Assembly (NCBI GenBank): GCA_910574935.1
Contig: CAJTCU010000004.1
Coordinates: 1 to 64,000 of the forward strand
Direction: 5' to 3'
Length of the DNA: 64,000 bases
Source: Oscillospiraceae bacterium
GTDB lineage: Bacteria; Bacillota; Clostridia; Oscillospirales; Acutalibacteraceae
Shown: one piece after another, positions 3,798 through 46,373 of the stretch
Layout of the letters: every line of letters begins with the position of its first letter
Position numbering within the stretch: position 1 is the stretch's first letter
Translations under genes and position numbers: made by a program
The notes under the pieces: model-generated
Told to the model about the DNA's origin: nothing
Seen by the model: only the letters and a program-made list of their open reading frames with translations
Databases searched by the model: none

Positions 3798-5333
3798 TCA
3801 ACGGTTACAAATAATGATTGGCCTAGACTCCGGCACGGTGTCCTCAAATAGCTCATTTTGGTTTCTCAGGTCCGTGAGCAGCGCTCGGTGATTTTTAGCG
3901 ATGTCCCACAGCTTTTCCCCCTGAGAGGCGTAGTACACCAGAAACCGTGGACGCACATCAAAATCTTTGGCGTTCTCTTCCATGCCCGCCGAGGTCAGAT
4001 ATTTCACATTATCCATACTCATCAGTAGCGAGGTCACAGAGGTTTCAGCAGAAATCTCTACTGTGTTCCGGTCTAGGATCCGATACTCCCACAGTTCCGT
4101 GTGCCATACGGTATCGCAGCGCTTGGCTAGCTGGTTCTCTAACTCCACCGTAAAATTGTGATCAAACTGCTTTTCCGCGTAGAGAATCCTTCCTTGGGCA
4201 TTTACATATAGCATACAGATCGTATACTTAACCCGGTAGTTTATCTTGGTCTTTTCACAAGTGGACTGTACATTGTCCTGTTCACACCAAACATCCAATA
4301 CTCGCTGGATCTCGTCATCAGAAACCGTTAGGCTACACTTTTTTTTCAACACTTCAGAAGATACCCCATGGATTTGGGTAAAAGAGCTTTGGGCGTAACG
4401 CAGTTCCAGCGGCGCTTTCACCGAGTATGCGTCATTGATGATCTCCACCTCGCAGGCCTTGTACAAAAAGGCCATCAAAAACACCTTTACCACCACGCTG
4501 ACCCCTGTGTATTCCCCCACGTCGTCCTCTCGGGGCTGGATGCTGCTTTCCCCTGTTACAATCCGCAGGTCGCAAATACAGTCCTCTGAAGCTCCCGAGC
4601 ATTCAATAATCTGGCTGAAATCAATTGAGGCGGAAAGCTTTTCCACATTGGTACTATCGACCGCCGAAGTATAGAGAAAAGAAATATCCGCTGTACCGTT
4701 CACAGTCAGTCGTTCCTCTGAAAGGCGGCTCTCAATCACCCGGCAAGAAACATCCCGACGCAGGATAGCCTCTATGGGCGGCTTGCCGTTCTTTACCGGC
4801 AAGGTATCTTCAATGGTAAATTGATGGCATACCGCGTTCACCGCCTGATGGGCCTGGAAGGAATCTCCCCGTTTTTCAATGGACTCGTCTTCTAAACTAC
4901 AGGTGATCAGTTCTTTTCTTTGTACAACAGCCAGCACATGCAGGGACACTGCTGCGTGTAGATCGACTCTTCTGGCACTGACCGCCCGGCAGGTTAAATG
5001 TGAAATGGATGCCTGCACACAGGCTATGGCCTTTTCCTCAGAAGCTTTTAGCTTGATAGAAGCGGAGAATTCCTTTGTAAACTCACAGCAGCGGACACAG
5101 TCACCCTTACTGTCCAGATACATCACCCGAATATCGCATACCCCATCACAGGTTAGGGTATCTCCCGTAATGATGTAAGATGATACCTCTGGAACTACCC
5201 GGCATTTCAGTATCTTTTGAATGTCCGCGCAGTAATCCGGCAGATTGTATTCGGTGTCAACCGGCGTTTCGTAACGGCCGTCAAATACGGGGTCAAAGTA
5301 TTCATAGGGCGCGGTCTTTATTTGGGCCTGCAT
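3798..5333 (-). CDS. sipL: SipL-type SPOCS/LysM spore coat protein
   Basis: A 511-aa protein with repeated SPOCS (DUF3794) modules (roughly residues 25-125, 160-270 and 310-420) and a C-terminal LysM domain from about residue 462 (VYYASQGEKLWDIAKNHR). This is the architecture of Clostridioides difficile SipL (517 aa), which binds SpoIVA through its LysM domain and is needed for coat attachment. Its position directly upstream of spoIVA in the same orientation fits that partnership. The start at 5333 has an AAAGGAGAGG ribosome-binding site. A sigma-E-like promoter lies 35-63 nt upstream, consistent with mother-cell expression. Confidence 0.88.
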   Translation of the reverse strand: MQAQIKTAPYEYFDPVFDGRYETPVDTEYNLPDYCADIQKILKCRVVPEVSSYIITGDTLTCDGVCDIRVMYLDSKGDCVRCCEFTKEFSASIKLKASEEKAIACVQASISHLTCRAVSARRVDLHAAVSLHVLAVVQRKELITCSLEDESIEKRGDSFQAHQAVNAVCHQFTIEDTLPVKNGKPPIEAILRRDVSCRVIESRLSEERLTVNGTADISFLYTSAVDSTNVEKLSASIDFSQIIECSGASEDCICDLRIVTGESSIQPREDDVGEYTGVSVVVKVFLMAFLYKACEVEIINDAYSVKAPLELRYAQSSFTQIHGVSSEVLKKKCSLTVSDDEIQRVLDVWCEQDNVQSTCEKTKINYRVKYTICMLYVNAQGRILYAEKQFDHNFTVELENQLAKRCDTVWHTELWEYRILDRNTVEISAETSVTSLLMSMDNVKYLTSAGMEENAKDFDVRPRFLVYYASQGEKLWDIAKNHRALLTDLRNQNELFEDTVPESRPIIICNR

Positions 5334-5367
5334 ACAGCATCCTCTCCTTTGGCTTTCTTTTGCTTAA

Positions 5368-5396
5368 TATGTATGCGTCCCAAAGAAAATTATGCG
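5368..5396 (-). promoter_or_regulatory. Sigma-E-type promoter of sipL
   Basis: Reading the minus strand, CGCATAAT (-35) and CATACATA (-10) are separated by 13 nt. This matches the sigma-E consensus (GKCATATT, 13-15 nt, CATACAMT) in most positions. It sits just upstream of the sipL start, the expected regulon for a mother-cell coat gene. Confidence 0.6.
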
Positions 5397-5446
5397 GACA
5401 AAAGCGCCCCCTGCTGATTTTAAGCGGCAGCGCTCCTGCTCTTTAC

Positions 5447-5479
5447 GCAAAAAAGAACAGCGCCGCTGGCTCACGCTGT
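5447..5479 (-). terminator. Terminator of the membrane-anchored XRE gene
   Basis: On the minus strand ACAGCG (5474-5479) pairs with CGCTGT (5457-5462) around an 11-nt loop, followed by TTCTTTTTTGC. It lies right after the XRE gene and before the sipL promoter, so it separates the two units. The stem is short. Confidence 0.55.
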
Positions 5480-5489
5480 CCTTTTCTTC

Positions 5490-5873
5490 TTATGACTCCC
5501 CGGTTTTTTCCATATTGCCAGGGCCGCATACTCCTTTTAGCAGTTCTTCCGCCGAAACGCCAAAGAGCTTGGCCAGGGCGAACAAGTTTGAGGTGCTGGG
5601 GTCCGAGGCCCCGCTTTCCCACTTAGAGACCGCCTGACGGCTGACACCCAGGCTCTCGGCCACAAACTCCTGGGTCATTTTGCAGCGGCTGCGGTACTCT
5701 CGAATGGTCTCGCCCAAGGACCTTTGCGCCTGGGACACCTCTTTTTTTACCTGGGCAGACCGCAGGTATTTGCGCAACGCCCGGATAATCAGCACCAGCA
5801 CATAGATTGCCAGGCCAAAAAACAGCAGGCCGATCAGTATGGCGGGGATTGCCACGAAAAAATTCAAACCCAT
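5490..5873 (-). CDS. Membrane-anchored XRE-family HTH regulator
   Basis: A 127-aa protein with one N-terminal transmembrane helix (about residues 4-28, ending AIYVLVLIIRAL), a basic linker, then a complete HTH_3 domain at about 60-115 (MTQEFVAESLGVSRQAVSKWESG). The first ATG of the longer frame (5990) is unlikely. The ATG at 5873 has GAAAGGAGG 7 nt upstream, so that start is used. The DNA-binding domain would lie on the cytoplasmic side, tethered to the membrane, which is an uncommon layout for this family. Target genes are unknown. It is a single-gene unit closed by its own terminator, between the small sporulation genes and sipL. Confidence 0.75.
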   Translation of the reverse strand: MGLNFFVAIPAILIGLLFFGLAIYVLVLIIRALRKYLRSAQVKKEVSQAQRSLGETIREYRSRCKMTQEFVAESLGVSRQAVSKWESGASDPSTSNLFALAKLFGVSAEELLKGVCGPGNMEKTGES

Positions 5874-6072
5874 CCTTTTGCCTCCTTTCTTTATTTTGTC
5901 CTCATAGTAGCATAAACCCGCTGGTTTCCTCCACCAACTATCGCGCAACCTGGGAAAAATCGGGCATTTTTGCGGCTTACAAGGGACCAAAAAACGCGAA
6001 AAAGCGGCGTTTGGGACCAGGCCCGCACACCGCCTCTTCCGCTCGGATCAAAACAACCCTCTTAAGTACTTT

Positions 6073-40954: not shown

Positions 40955-40983
40955 TTGCAATTCACATTTAGATGTGTTATGAT
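40955..40983 (+). promoter_or_regulatory. Sigma-A promoter of the UROD-family gene
   Basis: TTGCAA (40955-40960) and TATGAT (40978-40983) at 17 nt spacing; leader of about 115 nt. Confidence 0.65.
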
Positions 40984-41103
40984 ATTTTCCAATATATGCC
41001 AATGATTTTGTGCGATTTTACAGCCATTTTGCCGCCACCCTGGTTTTTTTTGGGGACGGTAGAACAAAAAATCATCCGCTGTATTCGCAGAAAGGAAGCT
41101 ATC

Positions 41104-42066
41104 ATGAATAAAGTAGCAAGAATGCAAGCTGTATTCCACAACCAAACTCCCGACCGGGTGCCGGTTGGGTTTTGGCGGCACTACCCCAAAGAGCTTACTG
41201 TGGAGGAGCGTGCCCAGGCCCATGTGGACTTTTTCCGGGAAACCGGCATGGACGTGGTCAAAATTATGGACGATAACTTTGGCCGCTTTTTGACCGACGG
41301 TATCAAGATCACCAAGCCCTCCGATTGGCGCAGCATCCGTCTGCCCGGCAAGGACTGCCGGCATTATCAGGAAATGATCCAGCTCATCCAGCGCATTTTG
41401 GAGATGCTGCAAGGTGACGCTATGACGTTCCCAACCATGTGGAGCCCCTTTAAGATCGGTTCCTTCACCTATGTGCTGGCAGGCAGCACGGATCAGCAAT
41501 TCATGGCCGACTGCGCCGAAGACCCTGATTCTGTGATGGAAGGCATGAAGCGGATTGCAGAGAGTTTCCAGGAATGGGCAGCGGACTACCTGCGGCTGGG
41601 CAGCAGCGGTATCTACTATTCTGGCCAGTTCAGCGAACCCCAGCGTTTTGCGGAAGAAACTTGGCAGAAACTGGTAAAGCCTTGGGACCTGGCCGTGCTG
41701 CATGTAACCCGGGAGTTTGAGGGAAAATATAATATCGTACACATCTGCGGCGAGGAGGAATTTGGATTTAACTCCTCTCCCCGGCGCTATGCCGGCTACC
41801 CTGGCGACCTATTCAACTGGGACGTGCACCGGGGTGGCATGAGCCTGCAAGAGGGACGTGATTGGTTCAAAACTCCTATTTTGGGCGGCATGGACAACCA
41901 TGGGGTCCTAATAAACGGCAGTATGGAGGAAATTCAGGCCCAAGCCAAAGAGGTCATTGCCAGTTTTGGTAAACAGGGCTTTATGCTGGGCGCGGACTGC
42001 ACAGTACCTGCCGACATTGATCTGGCGCGGCTGCGGGCGGCTGTAGAAGCCGCGGCTCAGGCTTAA
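41104..42066 (+). CDS. Uroporphyrinogen decarboxylase (URO-D) family protein
   Basis: A 320-aa TIM-barrel protein. The N-terminus (MNKVARMQAVFHNQTPDRVP) and the late GGMDNHGVLINGS and FMLGADCTVPADID segments fit the UroD/MtaA/CmuA superfamily. Members other than HemE are mostly corrinoid methyltransferases or demethylases. HemE's substrate Arg/Asp pattern is not apparent, and no heme genes or corrinoid protein are nearby, so heme synthesis is unlikely. The ATG at 41104 has AAAGGAAG upstream; the 44 additional codons before it include the promoter and are excluded. Confidence 0.8.
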   Translation: MNKVARMQAVFHNQTPDRVPVGFWRHYPKELTVEERAQAHVDFFRETGMDVVKIMDDNFGRFLTDGIKITKPSDWRSIRLPGKDCRHYQEMIQLIQRILEMLQGDAMTFPTMWSPFKIGSFTYVLAGSTDQQFMADCAEDPDSVMEGMKRIAESFQEWAADYLRLGSSGIYYSGQFSEPQRFAEETWQKLVKPWDLAVLHVTREFEGKYNIVHICGEEEFGFNSSPRRYAGYPGDLFNWDVHRGGMSLQEGRDWFKTPILGGMDNHGVLINGSMEEIQAQAKEVIASFGKQGFMLGADCTVPADIDLARLRAAVEAAAQA

Positions 42067-43225: not shown

Positions 43226-43573
43226 CTGGGGCTTATTTAAAAATAGAGGAAATGACGGATTTTTGACTAGGACTTGTTTGAAAAATCGAAAACGTCGTCT
43301 TTTTTGCCATAAGAGGCCACTTTCTACGTCGAAAATCCTCGTCAATCGCCAGATTGCCTTATCGCCAGATTGCCTTGCGGTTTTCTCCTTGAAATTGTCC
43401 CCTTCTGGCCCAAAATTCGTCATTTCCTCTATTTTCAAACAAGCCCTAGAAGTGGTCAGCTTCAAGGAAAAAGCCGCAAGTAATACTTGCGTATTACGAG
43501 GATTTCCGACGCGGAAGATGGCCGCCTCTGGGCAATCAGACAGTGTTTTCGTTTTTTCAAACAAATCCTAGTC
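43226..43573. repeat. MITE-like element with interleaved inverted repeats
   Basis: Four copies of the motif CTRGGRYTTRTTTRAAAA occur: two on the plus strand (from 43226 and 43267) and two on the minus strand (ending 43446 and 43572). Copy 1 with copy 3 gives a ~36-nt inverted repeat including AATAGAGGAAATGACG; copy 2 with copy 4 gives a ~30-nt one including CGAAAAC. The interior has a direct repeat of GGCAATCTGGCGAT and a GTAATAC hairpin. Long open frames on both strands here have no ribosome-binding site and look incidental. No transposase is present, so it would be non-autonomous or an intergenic repeat. Confidence 0.65.
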
Positions 43574-43613: not shown

Positions 43614-43642
43614 TTGACATCTGCGCAGAATGCATTTATAAT
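43614..43642 (+). promoter_or_regulatory. Consensus sigma-A promoter of the CoADR-rhodanese-SiR fusion gene
   Basis: TTGACA (43614-43619), 17 nt, TATAAT (43637-43642): a perfect consensus. The transcript would start about 47 nt before the ATG. It begins just 41 nt beyond the repeat element. Confidence 0.88.
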
Positions 43643-43695
43643 ATTTTATAATAATGTCTTGGAGCTACTTTACACATCTGAAAGGAATGACTTTT

Positions 43696-46278
43696 ATGAA
43701 ACTACTGGTCATCGGTGGTGTAGCCGCCGGTACAAAAACCGCCGCCAAATTCAAACGCGAAAACCGTTCGGCCCAGGTAACACTGCTTTCAAAAAGTGCC
43801 GACATCTCCTATGCTGGCTGCGGCCTCCCCTACTATGTAGGCGGTGCTATTCAGGACCAAAGCGAATTGATCGTCAATACCCCCCAAAAGTTCCAGGGAC
43901 TTACTGGTGTTGAGGTACTTACCCACCGGGAAGCTGTGAAGGTGGATCCTGCCAAGAAGCAAGTGGAGGCGAAAAATCTTTCCACCGGTGAAACAGAGAT
44001 CTACTGTTATGACTCTCTAGTGATTGCTGTAGGCGCCTCCCCTGTAGTGCCTCCTGTAGAAGGCGTAGATTTGCCTGGGGTCTTTCAGATTCGTACCCCA
44101 GAGGACGCTGTTTCTGTGCGGAGCTATCTGGAACAAAACAGCGTAAAAAAAGCCGTGGTGGTGGGGGGCGGTTTTATCGGCCTGGAAATGGCTGATAATC
44201 TTCTCTCAAAGGGCGTTTCTCCCACTGTTGTGGAGTTCACCTCCCAGCTGCTTCCTGGGGTGCTGGACCCAGAAATGGCTGGCTATGTAAAAAAACATCT
44301 ACAGGCCGCCGGGGTACGCGTACTCACTGGTGTAAAGGCCGAGGCCGTTACAGGCCAGAGCAAAGTGGAGGCAGTGCGAACCTCTGCGGGGAACCTTCCC
44401 TGTGGGGCAGTAGTATTCTCTGTGGGTATACGGCCCAACACACAATTTTTGGCTGATTCTGGCCTAGTTATGGACCGGGGAGCCATTGTGGTAAACGAGA
44501 AATTGTGTACCAACCTGCCGGACATTTATGCCGCTGGTGACTGTGCTCTGGTAAAAAACCGCCTTACTGGACAGCCCCAATGGTCCCCTATGGGCTCTTC
44601 TGCCAACCTGGAAGGCCGCACTTTGGCTCAGGCTCTAGCGGGTAAAAACAAATCTTTTGCCGGAGTACTGGGCACCGCTGTGTGCAAACTGCCTGGTCTA
44701 AACTGCGGCAAGACCGGTTTGACCGAGAAGTCCGCCCGGGAGGCAGGCTTCGACGTGGAAACCGCCCTAATTGTTACAGATGACAAAGCGCACTACTATC
44801 CAGACTCCGCTTACTTTATTATCAAACTAGTGGCCGACCGGACCAGCCGGAAGCTGCTGGGTGTACAGGTATTGGGTCCCGGCGCGGTGGATAAGATCGT
44901 TGATCTAGGCGTTCTCGGCCTTTCTATGGGCGCGAAACTTTCTGACTACGAAAATCTGGACCTGGCCTATGCCCCTCCCTTCTCCACTGCCATCCATCCC
45001 TTTGTACAGGCAGTATATGTGCTGGAAAATAAGCTGGACGGTATATTAAACAGTATGACCCCTACCCAGTACGCTGCCGGAGCTGCCGAGGGCTACACCA
45101 TACTGGATGTAAATCCTCAGCCTTCCATCCGAGGGGCTAAGTTTGTGGATTTAGCCGCTGTCAATGGATCTATAGAGGGAATTGCCCCAGATGAAAAACT
45201 GCTGCTGGTCTGCGCCAAGGGCAAGCGGGCCTATTTCCTGCAAAACCGTTTGAAGAGCCTGGGCTATACCAGCACCTTGGTGCTGGAGGGTGCCACCTTC
45301 TTCAATGACGTGCGCATTAAATCTGCGGGGGCCACAGTACCGCCAGAAGAAGTCACCCGTGTAAAAGGTCTGGGCTTCCTATGGGATAAACGTACCCCCG
45401 ACTGTTTTAACGGCCGGGTCATTACCCGCAATGGCAAAATTACAGCTGAAGAAATGCGGGCCATTACCGAAGCTGCCGAGAAATATGGCAGCGGAGAAGT
45501 GGCCATGACTTCTCGGCTGACACTAGAAATTCAGCATGTGCCCTTTGACAACATTGATGCTCTGCGGGAAGACCTGCAAGCCGCCGGCCTGGAAACAGGC
45601 GGCACTGGCAGTAAGGTGCGGCCTGTGGTCTCCTGTAAAGGTACCACCTGTCAGTATGGCCTTATTGATACCTTTGCTCTGTCCGAGGAGATTCATGAAC
45701 GCTTTTTTCACGGCTATGCAGGGGTAAAGCTGCCCCATAAGTTCAAAATTGCTGTGGGCGGCTGCCCCAACAACTGCGTAAAGCCCGACTTGAACGACTT
45801 GGGCATTATCGGCCAGAAAGTACCTCAGATTGACCTGGAAAAGTGCCGGGGCTGCAAGGTCTGCCAGGTGGAAAAAGCTTGCCCCATCAATGTGCCGGTG
45901 CTCAAGGATGGTAAAGTGATTATAGATGACAGTACTTGCAACCATTGTGGACGCTGTGTGGGGAAATGTCCTTTTAAGGCGGTAGAGAACTTCGTGCCCG
46001 GCTACCGGGTTTATATCGGCGGGCGCTGGGGCAAAAAGGTGGCCCACGGCCAGTATCTGGAAAAAGTGTTTACTGACAAGGACGAGGTTATGGACGTTAT
46101 AGAAAAGGCAATCCTTTTGTTCCGGGAGCAGGGTATCACAGGTGAGCGCTTTGCCGATACTATTGCCCGTTTAGGTTTTGAGAATGTCCAGGAGCAGTTG
46201 CTTTCAGACGGATTGCTGAACCGTAAGCAGGAAAACTTGTCTACTCAGAAGCATATGCAGGGTGGCGCTACTTGTTAA
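43696..46278 (+). CDS. CoA-disulfide reductase-like flavoprotein fused to rhodanese, sulfite/nitrite reductase-like and ferredoxin domains
   Basis: An 860-aa fusion. Residues 1-450 are a pyridine-nucleotide disulfide oxidoreductase of the single-cysteine type (FAD motif VIGGVAAGTKTA; redox C42 in SYAGCGLPYYVGG; NAD motif VVVGGGFIGLEMA), as in CoA-disulfide reductase. About 465-555 is a rhodanese domain with C506 (LLVCAKGKRAYF). From about 570 comes a ferredoxin-like half domain, then a siroheme/[4Fe-4S] site of the sulfite/nitrite reductase family (C647, C652, and C690, C694 in GGCPNNC). Two [4Fe-4S] ferredoxin motifs follow at 717 (CRGCKVCQVEKACP) and 748 (CNHCGRCVGKCP). It probably moves electrons from NAD(P)H to a sulfur compound. 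The ATG at 43696 is 9 nt after AAAGGA. Confidence 0.88.
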   Translation: MKLLVIGGVAAGTKTAAKFKRENRSAQVTLLSKSADISYAGCGLPYYVGGAIQDQSELIVNTPQKFQGLTGVEVLTHREAVKVDPAKKQVEAKNLSTGETEIYCYDSLVIAVGASPVVPPVEGVDLPGVFQIRTPEDAVSVRSYLEQNSVKKAVVVGGGFIGLEMADNLLSKGVSPTVVEFTSQLLPGVLDPEMAGYVKKHLQAAGVRVLTGVKAEAVTGQSKVEAVRTSAGNLPCGAVVFSVGIRPNTQFLADSGLVMDRGAIVVNEKLCTNLPDIYAAGDCALVKNRLTGQPQWSPMGSSANLEGRTLAQALAGKNKSFAGVLGTAVCKLPGLNCGKTGLTEKSAREAGFDVETALIVTDDKAHYYPDSAYFIIKLVADRTSRKLLGVQVLGPGAVDKIVDLGVLGLSMGAKLSDYENLDLAYAPPFSTAIHPFVQAVYVLENKLDGILNSMTPTQYAAGAAEGYTILDVNPQPSIRGAKFVDLAAVNGSIEGIAPDEKLLLVCAKGKRAYFLQNRLKSLGYTSTLVLEGATFFNDVRIKSAGATVPPEEVTRVKGLGFLWDKRTPDCFNGRVITRNGKITAEEMRAITEAAEKYGSGEVAMTSRLTLEIQHVPFDNIDALREDLQAAGLETGGTGSKVRPVVSCKGTTCQYGLIDTFALSEEIHERFFHGYAGVKLPHKFKIAVGGCPNNCVKPDLNDLGIIGQKVPQIDLEKCRGCKVCQVEKACPINVPVLKDGKVIIDDSTCNHCGRCVGKCPFKAVENFVPGYRVYIGGRWGKKVAHGQYLEKVFTDKDEVMDVIEKAILLFREQGITGERFADTIARLGFENVQEQLLSDGLLNRKQENLSTQKHMQGGATC

Positions 46279-46327: not shown

Positions 46328-46373
46328 TCCCCGCTATACCCGTTCATTTGTTGGGTACGGCGGGGACTTTTTC
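46328..46373 (+). terminator. Terminator of the fusion gene
   Basis: TCCCCGC-TATACCC pairs with GGGTA-CG-GCGGGGA (46328-46341 with 46353-46366, small interior mismatch), followed by CTTTTTC. Confidence 0.8.

Follow-up and report, generated by a model that had tools for sequence, protein, structure and literature searches.

Here we describe a gene at positions 43696..46278 (plus strand, stop codon included) of a 64,000-nucleotide stretch of DNA, hereafter the window (positions 1 to 64,000 of contig CAJTCU010000004.1, assembly GCA_910574935.1, Oscillospiraceae bacterium). Its 860-aa product joins a coenzyme A (CoA)-disulfide/persulfide reductase, a rhodanese, a predicted siroheme-type sulfite/nitrite reductase site with two inserted [4Fe-4S] ferredoxin clusters, and a tail ending in an invariant cysteine, C860. 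The fusion is a widespread and conserved variant of known parts, a persulfide reductase and a group III siroheme reductase; new are its architecture, the arm with its invariant cysteine and the host's apparent need for siroheme from outside. Our explanation of the whole, to which we give slightly less than an even chance, is that a sulfite reductase carries a persulfide-handling module of its own, with a relay through C860 and imported siroheme. Literature searches of open-licence PubMed Central (PMC) papers found no description of this fusion. The original prediction, made from the letters of the window, proposed the four-part chain, which is borne out by the translation, Pfam and alignment to solved chains, but it overlooked the C-terminal cysteine, the absence of siroheme genes from the host and the linked importer.

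The N-terminal half has the fold and domain order of a CoA-disulfide reductase (CoADR)-rhodanese. Residues 1-440 (43696..45015; this and all other features of the gene lie on the plus strand) form the flavoprotein with its single catalytic cysteine, C42, as assigned by Pfam, TIGR03385 and fold; Pfam places Pyr_redox_2 at residues 1-287 (2.4e-62) and the dimerisation domain Pyr_redox_dim at 335-433 (3e-14). The rhodanese domain follows at residues 455-540 (45058..45315), with C506 in the motif CAKGKR. By Pfam alone it is weak (residues 465-532, 20.3 bits against a cut-off of 22.2), and it is assigned from fold and from alignment to 3icr and others: residues 1-536 align with solved CoADR-rhodanese chains, with C506 on their rhodanese cysteine. 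C42, the active-site tyrosines Y367/Y368 and Y425, and C506 align with residues of 3icr and are invariant in 61 aligned sequences. The folds nearest to the predicted model of this half (template modelling score to target 0.88-0.93) are 6pfz of A. fulgidus, 8a56 (E. faecalis CoAPR), 3icr/3ict (3ict being B. anthracis CoADR-RHD) and 3nta of S. loihica. Unlike these enzymes, the window protein adds a siroheme half and the invariant tail, and it stays below the cut-offs of both first-ranked CoADR models, TIGR03385 (378 of 578.8 bits) and a second, NCBIfam model (372.5 of 458 bits).

The C-terminal half is predicted, from its sequence and from a structure model, to be a siroheme-type sulfite/nitrite reductase site. 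It comprises an NIR_SIR_ferr half domain (residues 572-630, 45409..45585, Pfam 6.5e-15) with R574 and R607, and a siroheme/[4Fe-4S] domain (residues 638-835, 45607..46200, NIR_SIR 1.2e-32) with C647, C652, C690, C694, R642, K682 and K684, into which a 2x[4Fe-4S] ferredoxin is inserted (C717-C758, 45844..45969; several Fer4 models, residues ~716-765) with the motifs C717/720/723/729 and C748/751/754/758. In Fsr, according to PMC10229431, sulfite is bound by R355, R423, K460 and K462, with R388 as the assimilatory residue, and the motif is C-x5-C-xn-C-x3-C. In the HMMER alignment, C647, C652, C690 and C694 map to C428, C434, C468 and C472 of Fsr 7np8, and R607, R642, K682 and K684 map to R388, R423, K460 and K462; R574 matches the first arginine (the R355 position) only via R108 of NirA 1zj8, the step from NirA to R355 being one that we infer. 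The eight ferredoxin cysteines align with Fsr C495-C534. The siroheme-cluster cysteines and the sulfite-binding Arg/Lys residues are invariant in the 61 aligned sequences, the closest solved chains by sequence are 9tn7 and Fsr 7np8/7npa, and the fold best matches Fsr 7npa (E 4.7e-19), with 39/39 Foldseek matches at E<=0.001 being sulfite/nitrite reductases. The siroheme-type site put forward in the original prediction is supported by both the domain search and the structure model, and the simpler view of the protein as a CoADR-rhodanese with a ferredoxin attached, which the prediction had tied to homologues lacking the siroheme cysteines, is rejected since the site is complete and these cysteines are invariant.

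All cysteines that had been named (C42, C506, C647/C652, C690/C694 and both ferredoxin motifs) are where they were placed and are invariant in 81/81 aligned homologs, and the atypical C-x4-C spacing of C647/C652 is likewise real and present in 81/81 fusions, in place of the canonical C-x5-C of assimilatory enzymes and Fsr. The same spacing sets apart a subclade in which standalone relatives are also found; C-x5-C prevails among relatives at a greater distance. The siroheme site, the sulfite residues and the two extra [4Fe-4S] clusters agree with group III Dsr-LP, a group that PMC3448663 defines by a siroheme site and two [4Fe-4S] clusters. The window protein matches the AsrC equivalog TIGR02912 at 111.3 of 324.1 bits (4.4e-32), under the cut-off, and is unlike group III Dsr-like proteins and AsrC in its fusion to CoADR-rhodanese and its own C-x4-C subclade. 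With Fsr (7np8, 7npa) it shares the siroheme site, the two inserted ferredoxin clusters, the sulfite residues and a redox/electron module fused in front, but this front is a persulfide reductase and not an F420H2 oxidase, the spacing is C-x4-C and not C-x5-C, and there is a C-terminal cysteine tail. NirB is similar in having a Pyr_redox flavoprotein ahead of the siroheme domain (TIGR02374, 248 bits, far under the cut-off of 578), and in NirB it is Fer2_BFD that joins the flavin and siroheme parts. The 860-aa protein has no Pfam match to Fer2_BFD up to E 1, having the rhodanese and inserted ferredoxins instead, and a NirB nitrite reductase is ruled out by this and by the score.

A chance or frameshift fusion is also ruled out. 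A genome scan found 443 relatives, from which 80 with an identity of 67-88% were kept; they share the same fusion without internal stops, 78 of them matching over residues 1-860 and the other two over 3-860, and the invariance of each named cysteine in 81/81 homologs likewise means that the architecture is not accidental. Full-length fusions were present in 3/398 genomes sampled from the phylum and in 4/120 family genomes (a tally of 5 counts the standalone form of G536; here and below, G and L numbers denote genomes and loci in the set of relatives, G000 being the genome of the window).

The C-terminal tail (residues 839-860, 46210..46275) ends GGATC, and C860, the last residue, is invariant in all 81 aligned homologs, while the residues preceding it vary. 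Five further fusions share the tail end (one as GGASC), two of them with deletions just ahead of the tail, so that GGA[T/S]C is found in 86/86 fusions and, in addition, in the split operon of G096. There, a CoADR-rhodanese gene (its N-terminal part lost at the contig end) is followed by a separate siroheme-half gene ending GGATC, the junction of the two adjacent genes consisting of a stop codon, a ribosome-binding site and a start ATG. By contrast, the tail is absent in 36/37 relatives without an intact N-half, a count that leaves out L209, where the enzyme open reading frame is incomplete, and L213, whose gene is that of L094. The tail-less standalone forms of G453, G488 and G536, the last from the same genus as the window, nest within the fusion clade (fork 100/99), which means that tail and N-half seem to have been lost together, and the joint loss of two opposite ends of a protein points to a joint function. 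On the tree the tail label changes four times, three of the changes being forced by well-supported branches; the position of L126 differs between two trees and is inside the fusion clade in both. From this pattern, the tail is probably a sulfur-carrying arm. The likeness to DsrC/DsrAB is one of function: a C-terminal cysteine on a flexible tail (C860 has a predicted local distance difference test score, pLDDT, below 50) that would serve a siroheme enzyme. DsrC works with two cysteines. The arm proposed here, in contrast, is covalently part of the enzyme, and there is no demonstrated homology to DsrC.

Several observations weigh against this assignment. The tail has one invariant cysteine against the two of DsrC, and it is of low confidence in the models, residues 854-860 being below pLDDT 50 and disordered in both, as is the C-x4-C loop (648-651) of the siroheme site in the structure model. 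G449 is tail-less despite having a distant CoADR-rhodanese gene (31%) in the vicinity, and G531, the exception in the count above, retains GGATC though its N-half is a relic. This CoADR-rhodanese remnant (L208 7515-7910, plus strand) lies directly upstream of the intact siroheme half, which fits a recent loss of the N-half.

The host of the window appears unable to supply the cofactor. In a search with hidden Markov models, G000 (99.97% complete) has no match to TIGR01469 (SUMT), TIGR01470 (precorrin-2 dehydrogenase) or TIGR00212 (HemC), and so should not make siroheme. TIGR01469 and TIGR01470 are both matched in G069, G248, G096, G034, G316 and G365. In a set of 43 genomes, made up of G000 and 42 fusion genomes out of the 80, 23 have SUMT over the cut-off and 20 do not, two of the latter showing sub-threshold matches. 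HemC was sought in 23 genomes and is absent in 10, among them G000 and the L006, L012 and L014 isolates; the HemC-less genomes are SUMT-less in 10/10 cases, and the HemC-bearing ones carry SUMT in 13/13. Despite the absent synthesis genes, the siroheme domain is the most constrained segment of the protein: in seven SUMT-less members its ratio of nonsynonymous to synonymous substitution rates (dN/dS) is the lowest among the compared segments (0.040, against 0.109 for CoADR), a rough value as dS is near saturation, and it is 0.038, likewise the lowest, in a comparison group in which many pairs are saturated and which includes L020, whose SUMT status is not established.

A candidate source of the cofactor is an ATP-binding cassette (ABC) importer of the FecCD type. 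In five loci, all from SUMT-less genomes (L061, L067, L073, L077 and L082), genes for a binding lipoprotein and a FecCD permease follow the fusion in this order, with the ATPase present in three; in L067, L077 and L082 the binding-protein gene overlaps the fusion stop. In G546, which is without SUMT and HemC, the gene order is fusion, CbiK-like gene, binding protein, FecCD permease and ATPase. A search of 50 genomes (the 43-genome set and seven more) with the binding protein of L073 (7894-8874) finds the importer binding protein in 20/20 SUMT-less and in 2/23 SUMT-bearing genomes of the set (Fisher 2.6e-10, with ancestry ignored). Among the seven further genomes the importer is present in both SUMT-less ones and not in four SUMT-bearing ones, and G248 has weak homologs. 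The set in G000 consists of consecutive genes for the binding protein (L154 6586-7575), the FecCD permease and the ATPase; it lies on another contig, G000:C5 (L154 6586-9342), and is a candidate for the tetrapyrrole importer of the window organism. A second search used G000's own unlinked binding protein as the query in 120 family genomes and matched 18. Of the 15 that remain when G000, G536 and G546 are set aside, nine, including G378, have a siroheme enzyme abutting the importer, two have one ~1 kb off and one has it 6 kb off (34-38% identity in the last three), and in three none was seen. The importer is present where siroheme synthesis is absent (20/20 versus 2/23) and linked in the genome to siroheme enzymes (five loci, G546 and 9/15 family genomes), both being what would be expected of a siroheme importer, and on these genomic grounds the system is a candidate siroheme/sirohydrochlorin importer. 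It resembles importers of the BtuFCD/HmuTUV/FhuBCD type in its Peripla_BP_2, FecCD permease and ABC ATPase components; it is unlike them in its binding proteins, far below the named equivalog cut-offs, and in the genomic tie to siroheme enzymes in SUMT-less genomes. We know of no earlier siroheme importer. In open-licence PMC full text no description of siroheme or sirohydrochlorin import was found, the match being an Aspergillus paper whose abstract concerns siroheme biosynthesis.

Two wider ideas were rejected. CbiK is not a general partner, being absent from G000 and most SUMT-less genomes, and the importer is not universal in tetrapyrrole auxotrophs, as only 18/106 SUMT-less family genomes carry it. 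Two side observations concern the importer loci. In L061, two open reading frames that by eye resemble an IS3-type transposase pair (4805-5943, minus strand) lie behind the permease, at the place expected for the ATPase. In G459 (L205), a CbiK-like gene at ~7254 (plus strand) stands just before the importer, and TIGR01469-like matches are present, none over the SUMT cut-off; this importer could serve sirohydrochlorin uptake for B12.

It is quite plausible, however, if still below an even chance in our estimate, that the importer carries corrinoids or heme for lineages without tetrapyrrole synthesis and that it lies near the siroheme enzyme by chance or through shared regulation. The importer belongs to the transporter superfamily of BtuFCD, HmuTUV and IsdE, SUMT-less lineages would need B12 or heme import too, the importer of G412 sits among cobalamin genes beside SUMT, and one of the weak homologs of the SUMT-bearing genome G248 is beside a TIGR01469-like gene and a CbiK gene. 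Further points count against siroheme as the cargo: in neither G000 nor G536 does the importer adjoin the enzyme; its binding proteins score far below the cut-offs for IsdE (heme), BtuF (B12) and siderophore families, scores that do not separate these three; in the family sample alone, the importer is in 0/14 SUMT-bearing versus 18/106 SUMT-less genomes (p 0.13, not significant); and the Fisher values ignore shared ancestry in a sample in which many genomes are metagenome-assembled. What a corrinoid or heme cargo leaves unexplained is the operon link to the siroheme enzyme in five fusion loci, in G546 and in the nine family genomes, the latter found with G000's unlinked binding protein as the query, and the fact that in both G546 and G459, genomes with no SUMT over the cut-off, CbiK adjoins the binding protein.

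For the enzyme itself, we propose that sulfite (or nitrite) would bind the Arg/Lys set and undergo reduction at the siroheme-[4Fe-4S] centre; the electrons, whose probable donor is reduced ferredoxin, would come in through the two ferredoxin clusters. Part of the sulfur may come off the siroheme in the zero-valent state and be caught as a persulfide on C860, in a DsrC-like manner; the tail would hand this persulfide to the rhodanese C506, and the CoA/C42-flavin reductase would free sulfide using NAD(P)H. In the window's lineage, the siroheme or sirohydrochlorin would be imported by the FecCD-type ABC system on G000:C5. The substrate, the electron route, the sulfur on C860, the direction of transfer and the importer cargo are all steps that we infer. 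Completeness of the sulfite site favours sulfite or nitrite as the substrate. Since the siroheme-ferredoxin half was kept after loss of the flavin and rhodanese parts, the siroheme is probably fed by ferredoxin and the N-half handles sulfur, and the occurrence of the tail cysteine only with the N-half suggests that the tail shuttles between the siroheme on one side and the rhodanese/CoADR sites on the other. In the abstract of PMC13188885, zero-valent sulfur is reported as the first product of assimilatory sulfite reductases, and this would give the arm its load. A broader statement, that gut Clostridia share siroheme, the no-tetrapyrrole lineages importing it or sirohydrochlorin by a dedicated FecCD-type ABC system and the fusion passing sulfur from a DsrC-like C860 arm to its own rhodanese/persulfide reductase, is possible but somewhat doubtful.

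The fusion could instead be a self-contained thiosulfate reductase, in which the rhodanese splits thiosulfate, the persulfide goes to CoADR and NAD(P)H, the sulfite goes to the siroheme, and both sulfurs exit as sulfide. The two halves, a persulfide reductase fold and a full sulfite site, fit the two cleavage products, the rhodanese loop has the pattern C-x-x-G-x-R, in which R511 is invariant and G509 almost invariant, and Halanaerobium is reported (PMC5497025) to reduce thiosulfate by a rhodanese and a sulfite reductase. We nevertheless consider this unlikely, as such an enzyme needs no tail cysteine that disappears along with the N-half, and rhodanese-less relatives keep the siroheme half. 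It is more improbable that in the window's clade the siroheme half uses another scavenged tetrapyrrole, e.g., heme, or is a cofactor-less structural remnant: the absence of siroheme genes would be accounted for, but the ligands and sulfite residues are invariant, and the siroheme domain is under the protein's strongest purifying selection in SUMT-less members. Least probable of all is the scheme of the original prediction, NAD(P)H electrons passing via FAD and the ferredoxins to a siroheme-like centre that reduces rhodanese-delivered polysulfide or persulfide, which has in its favour the invariance of C42 and C506 and the analogy to Fsr and NirB, where an electron module is fused to the siroheme domain, but against it the complete sulfite-binding set, the lack of a match to NirB's linker Fer2_BFD, CoADR-rhodanese chains that by their structure titles are persulfide reductases already on their own, and flavoprotein-less relatives, three of them nested in the fusion clade, that keep the siroheme and ferredoxin half; of that prediction, the sulfur-redox role stands.

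If sulfite reduction with a C860 relay is correct, many gut Lachnospiraceae and Oscillospiraceae possess an enzyme that turns sulfite into sulfide and has a persulfide relay built in, a source of sulfide that gene searches limited to dsr/asr could miss, because the protein scores under the AsrC cut-off. With the tail invariant, how sulfur exits siroheme becomes a question that can be tested within one polypeptide. If the importer does carry siroheme, this cofactor would be shared among gut bacteria, and the importer would be the first for siroheme known to us.

The gene is single-copy in G000. The open reading frame opens at 43654 in the mechanical list; the start at ATG 43696 is preferred because homologs begin there and because a ribosome-binding site, AAAGGA, read by eye, lies at 43681-43686, with a GAAAGGA-like motif at the equal position in relatives. 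Upstream is the perfect sigma-70 promoter noticed before, TTGACA-17-TATAAT (43614..43642, consensus 12/12), whose TTGAC is kept in 7/8 aligned upstream regions of the window's clade, the exception being L014. A probable terminator, a hairpin with a T-run, was read by eye at 46329..46372; an automated scan did not call the hairpin.

The gene had been said to stand alone, and so it does in the window, but in relatives DUF134 and the importer are its neighbours. A general conserved operon is rejected, since most flank clusters are housekeeping or local and the recurrent neighbours are limited to DUF134, LysR and the importer. DUF134 is upstream on the same strand in 42/80 loci (<=150 nt away in 37); none was found in the window. 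The DUF134 protein (L060 5591-5926 and 41 other loci) is regulator-like and cysteine-rich, with a 260-aa version in L137. A distant standalone relative, in G365, has on one flank TusA (confirmed by Pfam) with ThiF-, JAMM- and Cys/Met-type genes (by eye) and on the opposite flank HemB/SirC/HemL/SUMT-like genes, an assimilatory setting. In the window, 5' of the promoter, the non-coding region 43226-43573 contains imperfect inverted repeats (arms of 88 and 45 nt) and a 16-nt tandem duplication and is possibly a small mobile or repeat element. Further upstream, 40972-42066 (plus strand) encodes a URO-D domain protein (7.9e-17), though G000 is without a HemC match; URO-D domain proteins are often corrinoid methyltransferases.

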